A stretch of DNA of 64,000 nucleotides, taken from positions 1-64,000 of the forward strand of contig JADFXU010000001.1 of the NCBI GenBank assembly GCA_015233365.1, written 5' to 3'. This stretch comes from Nitrospirota bacterium. GTDB lineage: Bacteria > Nitrospirota > Thermodesulfovibrionia > Thermodesulfovibrionales > Dissulfurispiraceae. The first letter of the stretch is position 1. Every line of letters starts with the position of its first letter. Positions 2,232 through 58,961 of this stretch are shown piece by piece. The notes beneath the pieces are model-generated. The model searched no databases and was not told the DNA's origin. It saw only the letters and a program-made list of their open reading frames with translations. A program made the position numbers and the translations under genes.

Positions 2232-3482
2232 ATGCCGTCAAAGAAAAAGGGCTTGATCGTTCTCATGGGCTCCGGTGAACTCACAGCCACAATGGTCGAG
2301 GTCCACAAGGAAATCCTTGCGCGTTACAGCGGCTTCCCCAGGGCATTCTTTCTCGATACTCCTGCAGGGTTCCAGCTGAATGCCGACCAGTTATCTCAAA
2401 GGGCCGTAGAGTATTTCCGGCTCAATGTCGGCTATCCGATGGAGGTGATCTCGTTCAAGTCTAAAAGTGTGCCGGCCACGGAACGTGAACAGGCATTTCG
2501 CCGGCTGAAAGAGGCTGATTATGTCCTGGTCGGACCTGGGAGCCCCACATATGCCATCCGGCAGTGGCAGGAGACCCCGATTCCTGAAATACTCGAACTG
2601 CGGATCGAAGAAGGCGCATGTTTTGTCGCTGCCAGCGCTGCGGCCCTCACAATCGGGCGTTTTACTCTGCCAGTGTACGAGATATACAAAGTCGGTCAGG
2701 AGTTGCATTGGGTGGAAGGTCTCGACATTCTGGGTCATTTAGGACTGAATACCGTTGTGGTCCCTCACTGGAACAACGCCGAAGGAGGGACCCACGATAC
2801 CCGCTTCTGCTTCATGGGAGAGGGCCGCTTCAGGAAGCTTGAGTCAATGCTGCCCGAGGATGTGAGCGTACTGGGTCTCGACGAACATACGGCCTGTATT
2901 ATAGACCTCGACACGGAGGAAATATCGATAAAAGGCATCGGCTCGGTCACGTTCAGGCACCGGGCATTTGAGAGGACATTTCTCAGGGGGGAAAGGTTCC
3001 CGCTGAGGGTGCTTTCAGGGAGGGAGGGCAGCGTTATTCCGGCAGCGCAACTTATAGAGATGCCGGCGTCGGGACCAATGCCGGTCCCTGAAGAGGCAGG
3101 TTTCTGGGACTCTGTGCATGCGCTCGAAGTCGCTTACCATAAAGGCCTCGATGCTGACGCCCGCGATGCTGCAAACGCCCTTTTAAATCTCGACAGAATT
3201 ATCTGGCAGGCCCATCAGGACAAGGAGAGTCCGGAGTTCATCTCCCAGGCAAGGGAGCTTTTTCATGAATTAATTGTTATTCTCGGAGTGCGTTTGTCCT
3301 CTGCGCCGGAAAGCTGTTATAAGTGTCTCGAGCCGCTCGTGGAAGAATTGCTTGCCTCAAGGGCCTTGTACAAGGAAAATAAACAATGGCTTGAGGCGGA
3401 TGTTATCCGTGACTGTCTGAAGCGTGCTAAAATCGAAGTGGACGATACTCAAAACGGCTACCGCTGGCGGTTGAGGACATGA
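2232..3482 (+). CDS. Cyanophycinase-like (peptidase S51) domain fused to a CysRS C-terminal-like domain
   Basis: Protein of 416 residues with two parts. Residues about 6-285 resemble the S51/cyanophycinase fold: an N-terminal GLIVLMGSGEL strand, VGPGSPTYAI in place of the usual GGGN loop, a serine in AASAAA at the nucleophile-elbow position, and GLDEHTACII, the cyanophycinase-like GIDExTA motif. The usual GxSAG context is altered, so protease activity is uncertain. Residues about 300-416 resemble the DALR-like and tail region of cysteinyl-tRNA synthetase (paired helices, then LEADVIRDCLKRAKIEVDDT and GYRW). No HIGH or KMSKS catalytic domain is present. It is first in an operon and its stop overlaps the next start (ATGA). 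The function is not known; a role in a cysteine-containing product is inferred from context. Confidence 0.65.
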   Translation: MPSKKKGLIVLMGSGELTATMVEVHKEILARYSGFPRAFFLDTPAGFQLNADQLSQRAVEYFRLNVGYPMEVISFKSKSVPATEREQAFRRLKEADYVLVGPGSPTYAIRQWQETPIPEILELRIEEGACFVAASAAALTIGRFTLPVYEIYKVGQELHWVEGLDILGHLGLNTVVVPHWNNAEGGTHDTRFCFMGEGRFRKLESMLPEDVSVLGLDEHTACIIDLDTEEISIKGIGSVTFRHRAFERTFLRGERFPLRVLSGREGSVIPAAQLIEMPASGPMPVPEEAGFWDSVHALEVAYHKGLDADARDAANALLNLDRIIWQAHQDKESPEFISQARELFHELIVILGVRLSSAPESCYKCLEPLVEELLASRALYKENKQWLEADVIRDCLKRAKIEVDDTQNGYRWRLRT

Positions 3483-4495
3483 CTATAAAGATAAACAGGC
3501 CCGAAACTACACCCTCTGCGGGAACGGTAAGCGTCGAGCCGTTGCCTGGTCTGAAGCGCTACTCGCCGGATCACGGAAGCGCGCTGAAGTGGGATTGTTT
3601 GTTTATGCTTCCGCCGTGGATCGGTCCATGGTGGTCATATTTCGGAGAGGGCTCACAGACGCGCCTCTATGTTGTGAAACAGAGTGATGAGGTCCTCGGT
3701 GTGGCACCGCTTGCCGTCACCGGAGACACAGCACGCCTCATCAGCGACAGCAACCTGATTGATTACAGTGATTTCATCGTTGCGCACTCAAGGGAAATGG
3801 AGTTTTTCTCAATACTTTTTGACCATCTGAGACGTGAGGGCGTAAGCCGTTTGCAAACCGGACGGGTCCGTGCCGATTCAACAGCCTTCTCCTGTCTCCA
3901 TGCATACTCGACACCTCTCGGCTGCGATGTATCCTCTAACCCGGTGGATGTCCTTTATGAAATAGATCTTTCAGACACGTGGGAAGGATACCTCGGTATC
4001 CTGTCGGCAAAAGAGCGCCACGAAACGCGCCGCAAGTTCAGGCGTTTGGAGAGTGCGGGCCGTGTCGGACTGCGGGTCATCGAGGACAAGAAGGACGTTT
4101 TACATGCTATGGACACCTTCATATCGCTCTTTCGGTCCAACAGTACAGAAAAGGCGCTGTTCATGGCCGGCGATGTCGAGTCATTCTTCAGGTCTCTCGC
4201 AGTTGAGATGGCTGATGCCGGCCTGCTGATGCTTTTATTTCTTGACTTGAACGACAGGCCCGTAGCCGCAACAATGTGTTTCGACTACCGCTCGACGGTA
4301 TACCTTTACAACAACGGCTATGACCGGGACTTTGGCCACCTCAGTGTAGGACTTCTGAGCAAGGTCCTGAGCATACAGGAAAGCATAAAACGAGGCAGGA
4401 AAAAGTATAATTTGCTCAGAGGCAGCGAGGCGTACAAAGGCCGTGTCGGCGGCCGTCCGGTCAGGCTGTTTCACTGCGAGGCCATCCTGAAATGA
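3479..4495 (+). CDS. GNAT-superfamily acyltransferase, CelD/BioF2-like
   Basis: Protein of 338 residues resembling the CelD/BcsL-like acetyltransferase family (PF13480), a two-lobe GNAT relative of the FemAB/FemX aminoacyl transferases. Visible marks are the N-terminal WxxxFxxPxW-like stretch (about residues 38-55), a basic helix LSAKERHETRRKFRRL (about 178-193) typical of the acyl-acceptor lobe, and a C-terminal SVGLLSKVLSIQESIKRG followed by YNLLRGSEAYK that matches the family's end motif. No signal peptide is seen, so it should be cytosolic. It overlaps both neighbours by four bases (ATGA), indicating translational coupling with the S51-like protein and the glycosyltransferase. Acyl donor and acceptor cannot be read from sequence; by context the acceptor is probably an amino sugar. 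Confidence 0.7.
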   Translation: MTIKINRPETTPSAGTVSVEPLPGLKRYSPDHGSALKWDCLFMLPPWIGPWWSYFGEGSQTRLYVVKQSDEVLGVAPLAVTGDTARLISDSNLIDYSDFIVAHSREMEFFSILFDHLRREGVSRLQTGRVRADSTAFSCLHAYSTPLGCDVSSNPVDVLYEIDLSDTWEGYLGILSAKERHETRRKFRRLESAGRVGLRVIEDKKDVLHAMDTFISLFRSNSTEKALFMAGDVESFFRSLAVEMADAGLLMLLFLDLNDRPVAATMCFDYRSTVYLYNNGYDRDFGHLSVGLLSKVLSIQESIKRGRKKYNLLRGSEAYKGRVGGRPVRLFHCEAILK

Positions 4496-5793
4496 CGCCG
4501 TCTCCGGTCATCTTACCTTGCCCCCGGCTTAAAGCGCCCGGAGCACACTCTAATGTCCGGCCATTGAGAATAGCCACGCTCAGTATCCATTCGAGCCCGC
4601 TCGGTGAACTTGGGACCGAGGACACGGGCGGCATGAGCGTTTACATCCGTGAACTTTCCCGGGAATTGGGCAGGGCCGGCCACAGCATCGACATCTATAC
4701 CTGCGCCGACAGCGGAAGGCAGGACCCCAGGCTGTTCTTGTCCGACAATGTCCGCCTCATCCATCTCGGAATCGGCCACAAGGGACATATCACAAAGAGC
4801 ATGCTGTCCGGACACCTGCCGGAAGTATTTCATTCGCTGGAGGCATATATTACGAGTAACGACATCTGTTACGATCTTATCCACAGCCACTATTGGCTGT
4901 CCGGCGAAGTGGGGGGGCTTGCCCAGAACAGGTGGTACATGCCTCATGTGGTAATGTTCCACACGACCGGCATCGCAAAGAGGGTGGCCTGCAGCCAGGA
5001 AAGAGAACCCGCCCTTCGTCTGATAGCCGAAAAGAGACTGGCCCGAAAAAGCGACAGGATACTTGCAACAACCGAGAAGGAGAAAAATCTGCTTGTCAAA
5101 TACTATAAGGTGCCGGGTGAAAAGATTGGAACAGTGCCCTGCGGAGTAAACCTGGAACGGTTCCGCCCCGTGGAAAAAGATCTGGCCCGAAAAGAACTGG
5201 GTCTTCAGGAAGCCGGGTTCCTGGTCCTTTACGTCGGCAGGTTCGCCCCTGTCAAGGGGCTCAGCAGACTTGTAGCTGCAGCCGCGCATCTTCGCTCGCA
5301 GCGCAGGCTCATGTTCATGATTGTGGGTGGCGATGACAGGCAGACGCAGGCGTTTGCCGAACTCGGCCGTCTTGTACGCCGGGCCTCTGTAGGGGACATC
5401 GTCAAATTTCAGGGCAGGGTCGACCACGACCTTCTCCCCTTGTATTACAGCGCCGCCGATGTGCTCGTCGTGCCGTCTTATTACGAGAGTTTCGGCCTTG
5501 TGGCACTTGAATCGCTCGCATGCGGTACTCCTGTCATCGCCGCTCGCGTAGGCGCTATGGACACCCTTATAAGGGACGGCAAAACAGGACTTCTCGCAGA
5601 CAGCCTGAGCCCCCGTTCGCTCGCATCGAGTATCGAGAGATTAATGGCGCTTTCATCTGACGGCGGACTGTCGGTCAATGAAATACGCGCCTCTGTTCTC
5701 AGATATGGCTGGTCTAACATTGCATCAGCCGTTACCGGGGAATACGCGGCCGCCCTCAGACCTTGCGTTAAATCGCAATGTCGGGACCAATAG
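4492..5793 (+). CDS. MshA-like family 4 glycosyltransferase
   Basis: GT-B fold retaining glycosyltransferase of 433 residues. Residues about 26-50 carry the SIHSSPL...GTEDTGGMSVYI stretch and residues about 124-136 carry DLIHSHYWLSGEVG, both strikingly like mycothiol glycosyltransferase MshA (and sucrose-phosphate synthases). The C-terminal nucleotide-sugar lobe has VGRFAPVKG, then the ExFGLVALESLACGTPVIA motif near residue 335 with its EX7E acids. MshA transfers GlcNAc from UDP-GlcNAc to inositol-1-phosphate; whether this enzyme uses the same acceptor is unknown. Its stop codon is immediately followed by the ATG of an LmbE-type deacetylase, repeating the MshA/MshB or BshA/BshB pairing. No membrane segment is apparent. 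Alternative: a glycan or glycolipid glycosyltransferase. Confidence 0.8.
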   Translation: MTPSPVILPCPRLKAPGAHSNVRPLRIATLSIHSSPLGELGTEDTGGMSVYIRELSRELGRAGHSIDIYTCADSGRQDPRLFLSDNVRLIHLGIGHKGHITKSMLSGHLPEVFHSLEAYITSNDICYDLIHSHYWLSGEVGGLAQNRWYMPHVVMFHTTGIAKRVACSQEREPALRLIAEKRLARKSDRILATTEKEKNLLVKYYKVPGEKIGTVPCGVNLERFRPVEKDLARKELGLQEAGFLVLYVGRFAPVKGLSRLVAAAAHLRSQRRLMFMIVGGDDRQTQAFAELGRLVRRASVGDIVKFQGRVDHDLLPLYYSAADVLVVPSYYESFGLVALESLACGTPVIAARVGAMDTLIRDGKTGLLADSLSPRSLASSIERLMALSSDGGLSVNEIRASVLRYGWSNIASAVTGEYAAALRPCVKSQCRDQ

Positions 5794-6492
5794 ATGATGG
5801 AAGCGTTTGCCGATATACTCGTCATCGCAGCGCATCCCGACGATGCTGAATTCGGGGCTGCCGGAACGATAGCGGGCCGGATCAAAGAAGGCAGGCAGGT
5901 GGTCTACGTTGTATGCACGAGCGGAGAGAAAGGAACTTCAGACAGGACTGTCAAACCCGAGCTATTGGCCCGGATAAGGGAAAAAGAGCAGGAATCCGCT
6001 GCAAGGATACTGGGCGTAAGGGAAGTCGTCTTTCTCAGGCTCCCTGATCAGGGACTTGAAGACACTTCAGAATTCAGGAAAATGATCGTCCGGGCCATCA
6101 GGAAGTATCGTCCCGGGACCGTTGTGACATCGGATCCGTACCGCCGGTACGTCTGGCACAGGGACCACAGGATTACAGGGCAGGTCACACTCGATGCCGT
6201 ATTCCCTTTCGCAAGGGACCATCTCGCTTATCCCGACCTTCTGGAAGAGGGCCTTGAACCTCACAAGGTCACGGAGATGCTCCTCTATGGTTCAGAAGAT
6301 ATTAACTATCGCTCCGATATCACGACGACCTTCGATCTGAAAGTTGCGGCGCTCCGCTGTCACGAAAGCCAGATGAAAGAACTGGAAGTACCTGATATAG
6401 AGGCGTGGTTGCGGGAATGGTCATGTTCCATGGCCGAAGGCGTGGAGTGCGAACTCGCGGAGGCGTTTCACCGGATCGAGATCACGAGATAA
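5794..6492 (+). CDS. LmbE/PIG-L family N-acetylglucosaminyl deacetylase
   Basis: Zinc-dependent deacetylase of 232 residues, the usual size of BshB/MshB-like enzymes. The metal-binding AHPDDAEFGAAGT motif lies at residues 13-25 and the third ligand region at about 126-130 reads HRDHR, the family HxDH signature. Enzymes of this family remove the acetyl group from GlcNAc conjugates such as GlcNAc-inositol (MshB) or GlcNAc-malate (BshB). The start ATG directly abuts the stop of the glycosyltransferase, so both are almost certainly translated together. An ATG is repeated at codon 2, so the exact first residue may be the second. It is the last gene of the operon and is followed by an inverted repeat at 6538-6573. 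Confidence 0.85.
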   Translation: MMEAFADILVIAAHPDDAEFGAAGTIAGRIKEGRQVVYVVCTSGEKGTSDRTVKPELLARIREKEQESAARILGVREVVFLRLPDQGLEDTSEFRKMIVRAIRKYRPGTVVTSDPYRRYVWHRDHRITGQVTLDAVFPFARDHLAYPDLLEEGLEPHKVTEMLLYGSEDINYRSDITTTFDLKVAALRCHESQMKELEVPDIEAWLREWSCSMAEGVECELAEAFHRIEITR

Positions 6493-22040: not shown

Positions 22041-23597
22041 ATGAATCGGAAATTGCCTTTTTTGGATTTTGATGCCCAGAGTTCAAGCCCGCAGTACCTT
22101 GAGAACCTGGCGACCGGATACTGGTTTTCTGAAGTTCTTTTTACATCAGTTGAAATGGACCTCTTCTCACAACTCGAACCGGATGGGGCTGCTCTTGAAG
22201 ATCTCGCTGCTTCTCTCGACGTAAATCCCGCAGCTCTCTATCGTTTCCTTCACGCCCTCGTCTCAGTGGGGCTCATCACGAGGCACAATGACCGTTATTT
22301 CAATGCCGGGATATCGCATGACTACCTGGTGCCCGGTAAAGAACACTATCAGGGCAACGCTATCTTGTGGAAGAAATATTTACGGACACACTGGGAAGGG
22401 CTGACAGACTGTCTCAAGTCAGGAGGAAGAACCAATTATTCAAATCAGGATGACTCTGTGGTGAGATCCGGGCGAATAAGAAAATATATCAGTGCAATGG
22501 ACTGTATTGCCAGGACCAAAGGGCAAGAGATTCTCAGGTTCTTTGAAGGTCTGTCCATAAAAGGCAACCTCATAGATATTGGTGCCGGTTCAGGCGCCAT
22601 AGCAGCGGCCTTTCTGATGCAGTATCCGGACCTGAGCGGAACTTTCCTGGACCTGCCCGAAGTCCTGGATTATACAAAAATATTCATGAGAGAAAAAGCA
22701 TTCAACAGCAAAGCGCATTACTGCGCCGGCAATATCCTGGAGACATGGCCGGTAAAGATGGGCTCGTTTGATCTGGTTATTCTGTCGAATATCATCCACG
22801 CATATTCAGAAAAGGAGTTGCCTCATATCATTGCGATGGCCGTTAATGCCCTTAATAAAGAAGGCATTCTCCTGATTCACGATTTCTTTTTTGAACATTA
22901 CCCCGAAAAGGCAGCACTAAGTGATCTGAATATGTTCATAAATACTTTCAACGGTAAGGTCTTTTCCGGGGCCGCCATTCAGGAGAGATTGCATGGCCTC
23001 GGCCTCTCCAACACCACGCTGATACCGCTGGAAACAGACACCGCCATAATAGTTGCGTCGGGGAACGCCTCAGCTATCAGATCATTGCATGTCGATCCTG
23101 TGAGCCGTCTCATTTCGAAGACGCAGACAATGGGTTTCAGTAAGGTCCGCCTGCTGAAGACAGAAGACATAACAGTTGCTGAATGGGCAGCCCTGAAATG
23201 CAGGTACGGATGCGATCGTTACGGGAGCCCGAGCTGCCCTCCGAACAGTCCTGAACCGGAGAAGACGAGGTCGATCTTAAAAGAATACAGGCATGCACTG
23301 CTCCTTGAAGGACAGCCTCCCACCAGAGATTTTCAGCAGCGGGTCCTGCAGGTTGAGAAGGAGGCTTTCGTGAGTGGATTCCCCAAAGCCTTCTCTTTCT
23401 GGGCAGGACCCTGTTCTCTTTGTGATCCTTGTGTCGGCGCTGGGGGGAAGTGCAGGAATATTGCCGATGCCAGACCTTCCATGGAAGGCGCAGGCATAGA
23501 TGTGTTTGAGACTGCGAGACTTGCCGGTGCAAGGCTGAGAACATTGAAGAACAAAACGGACTTTATAAAATACTATGGATTAATATTACTGGAGTGA
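22041..23597 (+). CDS. SAM-dependent O-methyltransferase fused to DUF2284 metal-binding domain
   Basis: Fusion of 518 residues. Residues about 15-100 are a winged-helix dimerisation domain of the acetylserotonin/caffeate O-methyltransferase type, followed by a Rossmann methyltransferase domain with LIDIGAGSGAIAAAFL (about 175-190) as SAM-binding glycine loop and SNIIHAYSEKELPHI later. Residues about 365-518 match DUF2284, with clustered cysteines CRYGCDRYGSPSCPP and FWAGPCSLCDPC...CRN, a pattern expected to bind metal or an iron-sulfur cluster. AAGGAG lies 8 bases before the ATG. The stop overlaps a radical SAM gene, so the three genes 22041-26444 likely form one pathway. Confidence 0.82.
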   Translation: MNRKLPFLDFDAQSSSPQYLENLATGYWFSEVLFTSVEMDLFSQLEPDGAALEDLAASLDVNPAALYRFLHALVSVGLITRHNDRYFNAGISHDYLVPGKEHYQGNAILWKKYLRTHWEGLTDCLKSGGRTNYSNQDDSVVRSGRIRKYISAMDCIARTKGQEILRFFEGLSIKGNLIDIGAGSGAIAAAFLMQYPDLSGTFLDLPEVLDYTKIFMREKAFNSKAHYCAGNILETWPVKMGSFDLVILSNIIHAYSEKELPHIIAMAVNALNKEGILLIHDFFFEHYPEKAALSDLNMFINTFNGKVFSGAAIQERLHGLGLSNTTLIPLETDTAIIVASGNASAIRSLHVDPVSRLISKTQTMGFSKVRLLKTEDITVAEWAALKCRYGCDRYGSPSCPPNSPEPEKTRSILKEYRHALLLEGQPPTRDFQQRVLQVEKEAFVSGFPKAFSFWAGPCSLCDPCVGAGGKCRNIADARPSMEGAGIDVFETARLAGARLRTLKNKTDFIKYYGLILLE

Positions 23598-23602
23598 ACA
23601 TA

Positions 23603-24925
23603 ATGCGGGTTCTTTTTGTGCAGTCTCCTTCGGTTGAAGGCAATTGTCAGGAAAAGGTCTATCCACTCGGGATTGTGCTCCTTGCCGGGTGCCTGAAGGA
23701 GACAGGGCATCAGGTGGACATCATCGACATGAATATAGAGACGGACCCCTATGGGGCGCTCAAATCCAGGCTTATGAGCTATAAGCCCGAGGTCGTGGGA
23801 TTGTCATTAAGGAACATTGACCCGCTCGGAAATAAAACTGCTTCCCTTATCCCGCCTTTTCTTGTGACTGTGAGATTGGTGGCTTCTGTCGTGCCCGAAG
23901 CCCGGCTTATTGTCGGAGGCACAGGCTTCTCTCTTTTCCCTGAAAGGTTAATGCAGGAGGCTCCGGAGATCCGCTTTGGCATCGTCGGTGAGGCGGAGAA
24001 TTCGCTGCCGCTTCTCCTTGCATCTCTCGAAAACCCGCCTTCAGTGCCGGGCCTGTGTCTGCGCCGGGGCGGCGAAATACAAGTTCTGAGTCCCTCCGGG
24101 TCCGTTGACATGACATGCTACGCGACGCCTCAAAGAGATTTCCTCGACCCTTCTTTGTTCAGTGGTATTAACAGTTATATGCCTTCCATCGGGATTGAGT
24201 CGAAACGCGGGTGTTCTTTCAACTGTGTTTATTGCGTATATCCGAAAATACAAGGGAAGCGTATACGTTGCCGGTTACCGCGATCAGTAGTTGATGAAAT
24301 GGAACGCGTGAACATAGACTATGGAATTAACAGGTTCCATTTCACTGATCCGATCGTCAACTTTCCTGAGGGCCACCTGGAAGACATATGCAGAGAGATA
24401 CTCGCCAGACGATTGAAGATCAAATGGGATGGGTTCATGAGGGAGGACCACTTTACCGAGAAAAACGCGTCCCTGTACGAAAAGGCGGGGTGTGAATGCT
24501 TTTCTTTCTCGCCTGATGGCCTTTGTCAGGAATCTCTGGATACCCTCGACAAAAGACTGAGTGAGAAGGATGTCATAAATGCTGCCGGCATAGCTGCAAG
24601 GACCGACGTTATGAGCGTATACCACTTCATGGTCAATGTACCGGGAGAGACAAAGCTGACTTGCGAGAGGTCATCGCGGTTTCTGGAAAAAATATATGAT
24701 ATGCATGCCAGTAAAAAGAATCTGGGCACCGTTGTGCTCAATAACATCCGTATTCTGCCCGGGACCCCCATGGAGACACTGGCCAGAGAGGCCGGAGTGA
24801 CAGGGCCTGACACGGACCTTCTCTATCCGACATACTATAACCCGAAGCCGTTTGAGACTTTCCGGTACCGCCTGGAAACGTTGCACCTTTGCAGGAACGT
24901 GTTCATGTGGCAGGGAGTGAGGTAG
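23603..24925 (+). CDS. B12-binding-domain radical SAM protein
   Basis: Protein of 440 residues with the BchE/P-methylase-like layout: an N-terminal cobalamin-binding-like domain (about residues 2-140; PLGIVLLAGCLKETGHQVDIIDM, then VVGLSLRN and IVGGTGFS) and a radical SAM barrel with the cluster motif CSFNCVYC (about 209-216). The classical DxHxxG cobalamin ligand is not obvious, so corrinoid binding is uncertain. The ATG at 23603 has TGGAG at the right distance; a GTG at 23594 would overlap the previous stop. Between the methyltransferase fusion and a second radical SAM gene, it probably acts on the same substrate. Confidence 0.8.
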   Translation: MRVLFVQSPSVEGNCQEKVYPLGIVLLAGCLKETGHQVDIIDMNIETDPYGALKSRLMSYKPEVVGLSLRNIDPLGNKTASLIPPFLVTVRLVASVVPEARLIVGGTGFSLFPERLMQEAPEIRFGIVGEAENSLPLLLASLENPPSVPGLCLRRGGEIQVLSPSGSVDMTCYATPQRDFLDPSLFSGINSYMPSIGIESKRGCSFNCVYCVYPKIQGKRIRCRLPRSVVDEMERVNIDYGINRFHFTDPIVNFPEGHLEDICREILARRLKIKWDGFMREDHFTEKNASLYEKAGCECFSFSPDGLCQESLDTLDKRLSEKDVINAAGIAARTDVMSVYHFMVNVPGETKLTCERSSRFLEKIYDMHASKKNLGTVVLNNIRILPGTPMETLAREAGVTGPDTDLLYPTYYNPKPFETFRYRLETLHLCRNVFMWQGVR

Positions 24926-24929
24926 ACTG

Positions 24930-26444
24930 GTGAAAATAATCTTGCTTGAGCACCCGCGAAGCATAACTCCTGAACGGTGCAACGATATTGCTAATACACC
25001 GCTTTCCTCCTGTCTCATCAGCGGATATGCAGCAGGTATGCTGAAAAAGTGCGGTCATGATGTAGAGATCATTGAAGGATATCTGGACAGACTCACTTAT
25101 GGAGAGATAGAGAACGAAATAAGGTCGATAAAGCCGGACATTCTTGGTGTGCACATGGTCTATCATTGGAGGCAGGACCATGAGCTTTTCGGATTTCTGG
25201 AAAATCTGAAAGACAGGAGACTGGCGTCTACCATAACAGCCTATGGCTTTTATGCCACGATCGCAGCAGATAACATTTTGAAGCAATCCACTGCCGTCGA
25301 TTCCGTGATCAGCGGGGAGACCGAGATGACTTTCCCTGCGCTTGCCGAAGCTGCATCAACAGGGCTATTTACCCCCTTTCTTCCAGGCCTGTCGGTCAGG
25401 TATCAGGAGGGTATCCGGTGCACAAGGCGCAGACCTGTCAAAGATCTCGATGAAATCCCATTCCCCGTCCGCACTGAGGCGCAGTATCGTCTGCCTGAAG
25501 TTAATATCCTCGGGAGCCGGGGCTGCTACGGGCGATGCACGTTCTGTTACATCAACTCATTTTACGGCACCGGGGTCCCATGGCGTGGACGCAGTCCTGA
25601 AAATATAGCATCCGAGATTGCCGCTATCAACGCGGAACGACGTGCCGGGAGGTTCTATTTCACAGACCCGAACTTTTTTGGGCCGGGGCTGAAGGGACAG
25701 GAAAGGGCACTGAAGATTGCCGCTCTTCTGAAGCCCATGAATATTTTTTTCGGCATTGAGGGAAGAGTCAACGACATCCATGACAAAACCATCGGAAGGC
25801 TTGTTGATGCGGGCCTCCGGCATATTCTTGTCGGACTCGAAAGCGGAAGGGACGAATCCCTGAAACGAATGAACAAGATGACCACAGTGGACCAGAACGA
25901 GCAGGCATTGCGCGTTCTCAGGAGACATGGGATAGAGCCGAATGTAGGGTTTATCATGTTTGAACCGGATTCCTCCCTGGAAGATATCCGCATCAATTTC
26001 GAGTTCCTCAAGAGAAACGATCTGCTTGCCAATCTTCCTGTTACAGCGAATGTTCTCTACCATCACCAGATCGTACTGGAAGGGACCGAAGCCTATCATA
26101 TGCTCAAGCGGGAAGGACGGCTCCAGCTTCGGGATTCCTCATACGAAGGCAATACCTGCCTGAAGACCCCTGGAGTTGCCGCTCTTGCAAACATCATGAG
26201 GGGTGTGACCAATGTACTTTTCAGCCGCATGGCCGCTATATGGAGCGGCAAAATTGCCGAGACACCTGACACAAGAAGGCAAAATGCAGAAATTAATCGA
26301 ATCCTCGTCGATACTTTTGAGAATTGTCTATGTCAGCTTGAAGCTGGAGAACAGTTCGATGACAAGCACATACGTATAATGGCGCAGAATGCCGAGAGAG
26401 AGATCAATGGCAGCTTAAATAAATCATATGGATCAGACGATTGA
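24930..26444 (+). CDS. B12-binding-domain radical SAM protein
   Basis: Protein of 504 residues, likely GTG start with GAGGT upstream and only four bases after the preceding gene. The N-terminal Rossmann-like region (about residues 1-140) resembles the cobalamin-binding domain of this class without a clear DxHxxG. The radical SAM motif is CYGRCTFC (about 196-203), preceded by NILGSRG, and followed by RFYFTDPNFFGPG and LVGLESGRDESLKRMNK, both typical. A C-terminal helical extension of about 130 residues is of unknown function. Substrate unknown; with its neighbours it looks like a dedicated small biosynthetic pathway (methylation, oxidation or cyclisation). Confidence 0.8.
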   Translation: MKIILLEHPRSITPERCNDIANTPLSSCLISGYAAGMLKKCGHDVEIIEGYLDRLTYGEIENEIRSIKPDILGVHMVYHWRQDHELFGFLENLKDRRLASTITAYGFYATIAADNILKQSTAVDSVISGETEMTFPALAEAASTGLFTPFLPGLSVRYQEGIRCTRRRPVKDLDEIPFPVRTEAQYRLPEVNILGSRGCYGRCTFCYINSFYGTGVPWRGRSPENIASEIAAINAERRAGRFYFTDPNFFGPGLKGQERALKIAALLKPMNIFFGIEGRVNDIHDKTIGRLVDAGLRHILVGLESGRDESLKRMNKMTTVDQNEQALRVLRRHGIEPNVGFIMFEPDSSLEDIRINFEFLKRNDLLANLPVTANVLYHHQIVLEGTEAYHMLKREGRLQLRDSSYEGNTCLKTPGVAALANIMRGVTNVLFSRMAAIWSGKIAETPDTRRQNAEINRILVDTFENCLCQLEAGEQFDDKHIRIMAQNAEREINGSLNKSYGSDD

Positions 26445-57463: not shown

Positions 57464-57590
57464 GCCGGAATGGGTGTCCTCAATAAAGATTAATGCGTTC
57501 GCTACCTGTTTTGCAATCACACCTTTTTTTAATTACTATTACAATATCGGACTATTTACAGAGTTTTGAAGGAATAAACAGGAGGTGTAT

Positions 57591-58961
57591 ATGGAATTGA
57601 AGCAGGGTAAATACTATTTGCGGCAAGCGCGGTTACTGCAGCTTCTCTTTTTGAGTCTGATTCTGACAGGGGCTATTTGGGGACCGGGAATTGTGGCTGC
57701 CAGGGCTGAAGATGGTACGCCGGCCGCCCCCCAGGACAAATTGCAGCCATTGCTGCAACCTGACAATCCTGCTTATCGCACCCCTAGAGCCGGTGAAGGC
57801 TTCAAGACTGAATTGTTCGGACGGGAAATTGCGGTGCAGCCCGAAAACAGGCGTTCGGTTACAGCGATAGATCTGGGTGTGGCTGTTAATACACCTGGTG
57901 CAGACAATAAGGCGGCCCTTCCTTTTGGCGCCCTTTATCTGTGGCGTCATCCGAATGACCAGAGCCTCCTTCGGGCCGACATCGTAGGAGTATACAATGA
58001 TATCTTTTGGGCAGGTTCCTCCCCGATTCTGGGACCTTTCGAATGGGTGCTTACATTTAACAGCTACACCCTGCCATTTGGACAATATGAACTGATAGAC
58101 GGCAAGGCCGACAAAGCCGAGGAGTTGGTCTGGGGATACGTCAGACCGGGATTCGGTCTCGGTTACCGCAAGAACGTGTCTCCAGGCCACCAGGACAATA
58201 TGTTTGCCATTGACCTGACTATCGAGCCTGGTTTTCTTTTCTTTGGGAAAAATTCAAACGCTGCCTCTAATTTTGTCTTGCCCGAAAACACTTTCGAGCT
58301 TCGAGAGCATTTACAGGTGAGATTGGATGCCTTTGAGCGCAACCTGTTGTCCTTGCCTCATAGTGGCTTTGCTGCCGGCGCCGATCTGATCAACGGCAAC
58401 CGCACCAATTGGCGAAACTGGGGGTTGAGCGGTTCACAGACAGACGGGCGGGAGTACCTTTCGGCCAGCGGTTATTTATTGGGTGCAGGAGGAGTTCCGG
58501 GTGTCGACAGCGACCGCCACCGGCTTCTCGGCTCCTTGCACGGCGGGGTCGGCAGCAATCTCGACAGGTTCTCCGCGACCCGTATCGGCGGCGGGGTCAT
58601 GACCATGGGCGAAGAATATGGCTCCACCTGGCGGCCGATCCTTCCAGGCTCGATCATCCAGGAATACTTTCCAAAACACTACCTGGTGGCTGTCGGTGAG
58701 TACCGTTGGGAAGCCCTCTTTTTCACATATCTGAGTTTCAACGCTTCTGCCGGCTGGCTTGACCGTTTCCGGCAAACCGGACCGGCTTTAACCGATACGA
58801 CTTTAAAAAACGACGTCTTCACATCTTTGGGAGGCCGCGTGACTACGGGGTTTTTCTTTGATACTCGTATGCAGCTCTCCTATAATTACAATTTCTCAGA
58901 GATCCGGGACGGCAGGCGCGGCGGGCACGAAAGCGTGCTGCATTTTTCGCGCGATTTTTGA
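57591..58961 (+). CDS. Putative outer-membrane beta-barrel protein
   Basis: Protein of 456 residues, strong AGGAGGTG site before the ATG at 57591. A long signal peptide (about residues 14-40) leads to a polar region, then many alternating hydrophobic-aromatic strands (for example GFGLGYRKNVSPG, FTYLSFNASAGWLDRF, TGFFFDTRMQLSYNYNF) ending in the outer-membrane sorting phenylalanine of LHFSRDF. I do not recognise a named family. Together with MscS and the following stress proteins it may be part of an envelope-response group. Confidence 0.7.
   Translation: MELKQGKYYLRQARLLQLLFLSLILTGAIWGPGIVAARAEDGTPAAPQDKLQPLLQPDNPAYRTPRAGEGFKTELFGREIAVQPENRRSVTAIDLGVAVNTPGADNKAALPFGALYLWRHPNDQSLLRADIVGVYNDIFWAGSSPILGPFEWVLTFNSYTLPFGQYELIDGKADKAEELVWGYVRPGFGLGYRKNVSPGHQDNMFAIDLTIEPGFLFFGKNSNAASNFVLPENTFELREHLQVRLDAFERNLLSLPHSGFAAGADLINGNRTNWRNWGLSGSQTDGREYLSASGYLLGAGGVPGVDSDRHRLLGSLHGGVGSNLDRFSATRIGGGVMTMGEEYGSTWRPILPGSIIQEYFPKHYLVAVGEYRWEALFFTYLSFNASAGWLDRFRQTGPALTDTTLKNDVFTSLGGRVTTGFFFDTRMQLSYNYNFSEIRDGRRGGHESVLHFSRDF

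Follow-up and report, generated by a model that had tools for sequence, protein, structure and literature searches.

A conserved four-gene operon of Nitrospirota and Desulfobacterota as a candidate mycothiol-like pathway with a possible tRNA-dependent cysteine step

Here, we examine a four-gene operon at positions 2232-6492 of a 64,000-nucleotide stretch of DNA (the window) from contig JADFXU010000001.1 of a Nitrospirota metagenome-assembled genome (MAG; GCA_015233365.1, called G000 below), which amounts to 2.18 Mb and is 81% complete. The four genes all lie on the + strand and are joined, according to the open reading frame (ORF) calls, by two 4-bp overlaps and one abutting junction. They encode, in this order, a fusion of an S51 peptidase domain with the C-terminal part of cysteinyl-tRNA synthetase (CysRS), a double-GNAT FemAB-like transferase, a GT4 glycosyltransferase of the MshA type and a PIG-L/LmbE zinc deacetylase. 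An earlier note on this DNA had described four overlapping or abutting genes of these types, and the ORF coordinates and the Pfam and NCBIfam domains agree with it. We will argue that the operon may encode a mycothiol-like pathway to a low-molecular-weight thiol, in which the cysteine step is replaced and cysteine comes from Cys-tRNA via the GNAT protein, a reading that we hold to be evenly balanced between right and wrong.

The first gene (2232-3482) encodes the S51-CysRS fusion, for which Pfam, NCBIfam, AlphaFold2 (AF2) and Foldseek give an S51 domain at residues ~7-258 and a CysRS C-terminal helical and anticodon-binding domain at ~291-416. The N-terminal part matches Peptidase_S51 over the cut-off (6.5e-6), the C-terminal part matches positions 360-464 of the 466 in the CysRS profile TIGR00435 (5.8e-6), and a profile of 52 fusion homologues matches CysRS in the PDB with 6.8e-13 over an alignment of ~120 residues, which bears out the S51-like/CysRS-tail fusion of the earlier note. 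The AF2 model has a mean predicted local distance difference test score (pLDDT) of 87.7, and Foldseek relates it to S51 peptidases and cyanophycinase and to the CysRS-tRNA-Cys complex 1u0b. The S51 catalytic residues S135, H179 and E218 are invariant (52/52 homologues). In E. coli CysRS, G34 of tRNA-Cys is contacted by R423, R427, W432 and D436 (PMC12684709). R377, the R381 position, W386, D390 and D405 of the window protein correspond to E. coli R423, R427, W432, D436 and D451, and the homologues have Arg at R423 (52/52), Arg at R427 (51/52), an aromatic residue at W432 (52/52) and Asp at D436 (52/52), the window protein itself being the exception at the second of these, with K381. We take D451 to belong to the residue set that reads G34 and A36 of the anticodon. 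The mean majority fraction over the tail is 0.52, and the anticodon-contact positions stand out above it. The invariant triad and the kept anticodon contacts together make it most likely that S51-CysRS is a tRNA-Cys binder with a functional active site, acting as a serine hydrolase or an acyl transferase; its task could be Cys-tRNA delivery, proofreading, transfer or product turnover, all of which are possible.

The second gene (3479-4495) overlaps the first by 4 bp and encodes the GNAT protein, assigned by Pfam (Acetyltransf_6, 5.1e-29), AF2 and Foldseek. It has no MshD match in NCBIfam, and a sequence search against the PDB found no relative; only the fold search did so. The AF2 model reaches a pLDDT of 94.6 and shows a double GNAT fold, and the Foldseek list is led by Sbb17 and Sba18, followed by FemA, MprF, A-PGS and FemX. 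Ranks 1-9 all belong to the aminoacyl-tRNA-dependent class or its close kin, and the tandem GNATs that use acetyl-CoA come lower by TM-score; identity to the solved relatives in the structural alignment is ~13%. FemAB_like matches 39 of 41 family members, Acetyltransf_1 only one of the 41. The Sbb17 and Sba18 structures are of streptothrisamine-bound, aminoacyl-tRNA-dependent peptide synthases, and Sbb17 acts on an amino-sugar antibiotic precursor. The predicted structure thus speaks for an aminoacyl-tRNA-dependent enzyme with an amino sugar as its acceptor, the kind of activity needed in place of MshC. The FemAB-related GNAT of the earlier note is in this way corroborated, and the structure prediction that it had proposed for this protein and the fusion returned the aminoacyl-tRNA-dependent GNAT fold for the one and the S51 and CysRS folds for the other.

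The third gene (4492-5793), overlapping the GNAT gene by 4 bp, encodes the GT4 enzyme. The MshA model TIGR03449 fits it best by far (5.2e-92, 309 bits), the next NCBIfam model reaching 117 bits and BshA 93 bits, and the match to MshA in the PDB is 8.6e-61. Four residues of C. glutamicum MshA which we take to bind inositol phosphate are largely kept in 32 operon GT4s (K78 in 28/32; Y110, T134 and R154 in 32/32 each) and in 30 GT4s from Chloroflexota (K78 in 28/30; the other three in 30/30 each). Asn25 of MshA is kept in 23 of the 30 Chloroflexota proteins and is Ser in most operon copies, while Met24 sets these GT4s apart from sucrose-phosphate synthase 6kih, which has Gln there. The MshA-like assignment of the earlier note thus stands, and the enzyme is predicted to transfer from UDP-N-acetylglucosamine (UDP-GlcNAc) to inositol phosphate. 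A profile search places myo-inositol-1-phosphate synthases next to the operon in 15 loci, and clustering in 16, against ~0.5 expected in 975 ORFs, a probability that is only indicative, the genomes being related. These neighbours are of two non-orthologous kinds, and they recur in locus L188.

The fourth gene (5794-6492) abuts the GT4 gene and encodes a PIG-L family protein, as the earlier note had it (PF02585, 7e-34), with AHPDD and HRDH motifs that are invariant among homologues. Its best NCBIfam model is BshB1 (3.3e-31, 109 bits; cut-off 182.5), MshB (TIGR03445) reaching 45.6 bits (cut-off 224), and its closest solved relatives are diacetylchitobiose deacetylases, BshB1 and MshB. These scores place it nearer to the BshB-type and diacetylchitobiose deacetylases than to MshB; we predict it to be a GlcNAc-inositol de-N-acetylase.

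A scan of GTDB genomes for the S51 protein gave 78 loci, the nearest of which place the host MAG in Nitrospirota. Of these loci, 66 belong to Nitrospirota, Desulfobacterota or MAGs that bear the label Syntrophomonadaceae, and 39 of the 66 have at least 7.5 kb downstream. GNAT, GT4 and PIG-L genes are all found near the S51-CysRS gene in 27 of the 39, and mostly one or two of the three partners in the others. Gene order and strand are identical across the full-set loci, except in L030, where the trio is inverted, and where the S51 gene is alone the trio is often located elsewhere in the same genome. The co-occurrence check that the earlier note had called for therefore comes out positive: the set recurs in Nitrospirota and Desulfobacterota MAGs, in dozens of genomes and far more than chance would give. 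A carrier that is in culture is Desulfatitalea alkaliphila, with all four genes (L063). Among 396 Nitrospirota genomes, S51-CysRS occurs in seven, and a GNAT above 440 bits in exactly these seven, the next-best match outside them scoring 182 bits; since the genes adjoin, this points to transfer and retention as a unit and not to independent coupling. Phosphatases (His_Phos, HAD) are recurrent at the operon edges.

Some further genes accompany the operon. Most Desulfobacterota operons hold two added ones, for a ThuA-Gfo/Idh fusion (28 loci) and a second Gfo/Idh oxidoreductase (25 loci; the pair lies, for example, at L012:11389-14044 and in 24 other Desulfobacterota loci). As ThuA/ThuB-type enzymes act on trehalose, their substrate may, by analogy, be inositol or the pseudo-disaccharide. 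A stand-alone second S51 gene lies directly upstream of the S51-CysRS gene in 14 loci (e.g. L013:9212-9937), and a hetero-oligomer of the two proteins is possible because S51 enzymes are often dimers. A glyoxalase-II-like metallo-β-lactamase-fold hydrolase, possibly a thiol-dependent partner, adjoins the operon at L012:17155-17793 and in at least 10 other loci.

The situation in Chloroflexota is different. Among 400 genomes of this phylum, the GNAT is found with 150 bits or more in 120, a tailed S51 protein in 29 and a tail-less one in 71, and the GNAT is present in 1 of the 29 compared to 36 of the 71. An MshA-like GT4 is directly adjacent in 30 of the 30 best GNAT loci, and in many of them PIG-L is next. 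We have considered S51-CysRS as a universal partner and rejected this, because the Chloroflexota triads occur without the fusion, which is itself mostly uncoupled there. The GNAT-GT4-PIG-L triad is thus the core of the pathway, and S51-CysRS is a partner in two phyla with a separable role in Chloroflexota. Being dispensable for the Chloroflexota core and mostly uncoupled from it, S51-CysRS is probably not the ligase. The tail-less relatives of the S51 subfamily in ~70 Chloroflexota genomes (e.g. L082:10001-10771) are accompanied by the GNAT triad in about half of the cases.

In the pathway that we propose, the GT4 enzyme would couple GlcNAc with inositol phosphate, a phosphatase from outside the operon would dephosphorylate the product, and the PIG-L enzyme would then deacetylate it, freeing the amine of glucosamine. 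The FemX-like GNAT would take an amino acid from aminoacyl-tRNA, cysteine being the likeliest, and place it on this amine to yield Cys-GlcN-Ins (cysteinyl-glucosaminyl-inositol) or a close relative, and would in doing so stand in for MshC, an enzyme that uses ATP to activate free cysteine. S51-CysRS would bind tRNA-Cys by its anticodon domain and assist, either by delivering the charged tRNA, by proofreading or by turnover of the product at its Ser-His-Glu site. The enzyme classes, the conserved operon, the acceptor-site residues, the inositol-phosphate synthase neighbours, the GNAT fold and the tail residues support such a scheme at the level of sequences and models. The donor cysteine, its origin from Cys-tRNA, the identity of the product and the whole S51-CysRS step are inferred from these. 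The earlier note had suggested that cysteine is delivered from Cys-tRNA to a glucosamine conjugate; the GNAT fold, the kept tRNA-Cys contacts and the acceptor evidence speak for this, and the part that probably does not hold is a ligase role for S51-CysRS, in view of Chloroflexota. A wider statement would be that anaerobes of three phyla (Nitrospirota, Desulfobacterota and Chloroflexota) use a FemX-like GNAT to load glucosaminyl-inositol with cysteine taken from Cys-tRNA, and that a tRNA-Cys-reading serine hydrolase helps in the first two; this is more tentative, and we place it somewhat short of an even balance.

Several observations weigh against this proposal. A strong GNAT is missing in 28 of the 29 Chloroflexota genomes with tailed S51, and the weak GNATs of these genomes adjoin GT4s of another type. 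The FemAB-like fold is common to a wide superfamily that includes proteins of polysaccharide loci, and the 309 bits of the GT4 are below the MshA equivalog cut-off of 462.5. In MAG G046, which is 97% complete and carries the operon, no inositol-phosphate synthase was found, and the presence of this enzyme at the genome level is uninformative and was set aside, because it occurs in 51 of 60 relatives. Thiol, substrate and activity are, moreover, all predictions from sequence.

It is also important to consider that a GT4 and PIG-L pair opens GPI-type (glycosylphosphatidylinositol) chemistry. The operon could accordingly yield a glucosaminyl-inositol lipid or glycan that is not a thiol, along the lines of early GPI synthesis, where a PIG-A-like GT4 is followed by PIG-L; the GNAT would then put another amino acid, or a fatty acid, on the amine. 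Acetyltransf_6 proteins do occur in polysaccharide systems (BspF; TIGR03019), and the structural matches of the GNAT include MprF-type enzymes of lipid aminoacylation. The surroundings do not fit, however: the earlier note would have had its reading refuted by homologous clusters that always sit within polysaccharide loci, and we find no polysaccharide or lipid setting in the window around the operon, in the flanks of related loci or around the Chloroflexota triads, whose flanks are variable (e.g. ribosomal-protein operons), nor any CDP-alcohol phosphotransferase among the recurrent neighbours of the operon. With the MshA phosphate-binding residues kept in the GT4, and the tRNA-Cys anticodon domain left without explanation, we consider this unlikely. 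The invariant Ser135/His179/Glu218 triad and the retained anticodon contacts would also suit a scheme in which S51-CysRS itself attaches cysteine, via a cysteinyl-serine intermediate from Cys-tRNA to GlcN-Ins, while the GNAT is MshD-like and the product is ordinary mycothiol. MshD is likewise a tandem GNAT, and acetyl-CoA-dependent tandem GNATs do appear further down the Foldseek list. Known S51 enzymes are hydrolases, though, the GNAT resembles the aminoacyl-tRNA-dependent enzymes more than the acetyl-CoA ones, and the Chloroflexota triads lacking tailed S51 would be left with an amine and no ligase, which makes this scheme quite improbable.

Ordinary mycothiol-type synthesis would finally be possible if cysteine were attached by an unlinked, tail-less, MshC-like CysRS paralogue, the operon then contributing a hydrolase for turnover and all steps but this one. 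The host MAG does encode, on another contig (L114, G000:C6, 9749-10981), a CysRS-like protein of 410 aa that lacks the anticodon-binding domain; it is a possible amide ligase and could be an MshC, which counts against our proposal as well. The statement in the earlier note that there is no CysRS catalytic domain thus holds within the operon; it does not extend to the host MAG. MshC-like proteins are present in genomes G073 (406 bits) and G074 (369 bits) and in some Chloroflexota. The host protein, however, reaches only 180 bits to MshC (cut-off 485), compared to 283 to CysRS (cut-off 340), and its gene directly follows that of a MATE transporter. In the operon-bearing Nitrospirota G034, G046, G062, G064 and G065 we found one canonical CysRS each and no second CysRS or MshC, and BshC (PF10079) is absent from 18 of 18 genomes, the control genomes being positive. 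As to a standard ligase elsewhere in the genome, which the earlier note had raised, these genomes speak against one and the host paralogue leaves room for it; we judge this explanation the least probable, and very doubtful. As a separate observation, several Desulfobacterota have a second CysRS; in the operon-bearing G068 it is a CysM-CysRS fusion (L111), and those of other Desulfobacterota (~770-790 aa) may be of this kind too.

Compared to actinobacterial mycothiol synthesis (MshA, MshB, MshC, MshD), the operon shares an MshA-type GT4 with its inositol-phosphate site, an LmbE deacetylase, a tandem GNAT, a CysRS-derived domain and a nearby inositol-1-phosphate synthase. It differs in that MshC is absent from it and was not found in several operon genomes, that its CysRS part is the anticodon-binding tail and not the catalytic half, that its GNAT is FemAB-like, and that its GT4 scores under the MshA equivalog cut-off, with Asn25 replaced in most copies. 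With neither MshC nor MshD, it falls outside the mycothiol pathway proper and is a variant, of predicted chemistry. Bacillithiol synthesis (BshA, BshB, BshC) likewise uses a GT4 and a PIG-L deacetylase, here closest to BshB1 by NCBIfam score, whereas BshC is missing and the GT4 favours MshA over BshA. With FemX/FemA, MprF/A-PGS, Sbb17/Sba18 and BD-12 Orf11 the operon GNAT shares the double fold, these being its best structural matches, and the acceptor of Sbb17 and Orf11 is an amino sugar. Aminoacyl-tRNA-dependent GNATs occur in natural-product pathways with Ala, Gly, Ser, Lys or Leu as known donors, and a review of them gives no case with cysteine or a redox thiol (PMC12945691). The S51 peptidases (cyanophycinase, PepE, 6nqc) share the fold and the Ser-His-Glu residues with the fusion, which adds the C-terminal CysRS domain; no cyanophycin synthetase is found among the recurrent neighbours of the operon.

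Our literature searches on such a pathway returned none. If the proposal is correct, it describes a new route by which anaerobes make a protective thiol and names the genes for a protective small thiol of sulfate-reducing, Nitrospirota and Chloroflexota anaerobes in three phyla. It would be a fourth enzymatic route of adding cysteine to a thiol cofactor, after the glutathione ligases, MshC and BshC, and would make charged tRNA a part of thiol synthesis. For cultured hosts, the triad of GNAT, GT4 and PIG-L provides a simple marker.

As for the rest of the window, an APC permease gene upstream of the operon (360-2174) was considered as a member and rejected, since it has no counterpart in any related locus. 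Genes of housekeeping type in the window include those for SecA, chorismate synthase, GlgB, TilS and UbiD, and for FtsH and dihydropteroate synthase, both named from sequence; an encoded MlaE permease is consistent with a diderm host. A 458-aa ORF at 57585-58961 has no Pfam match at 1e-8, and at 22041-26444 an O-methyltransferase-DUF2284 fusion, a B12-binding radical SAM protein and a further radical SAM protein are encoded consecutively.

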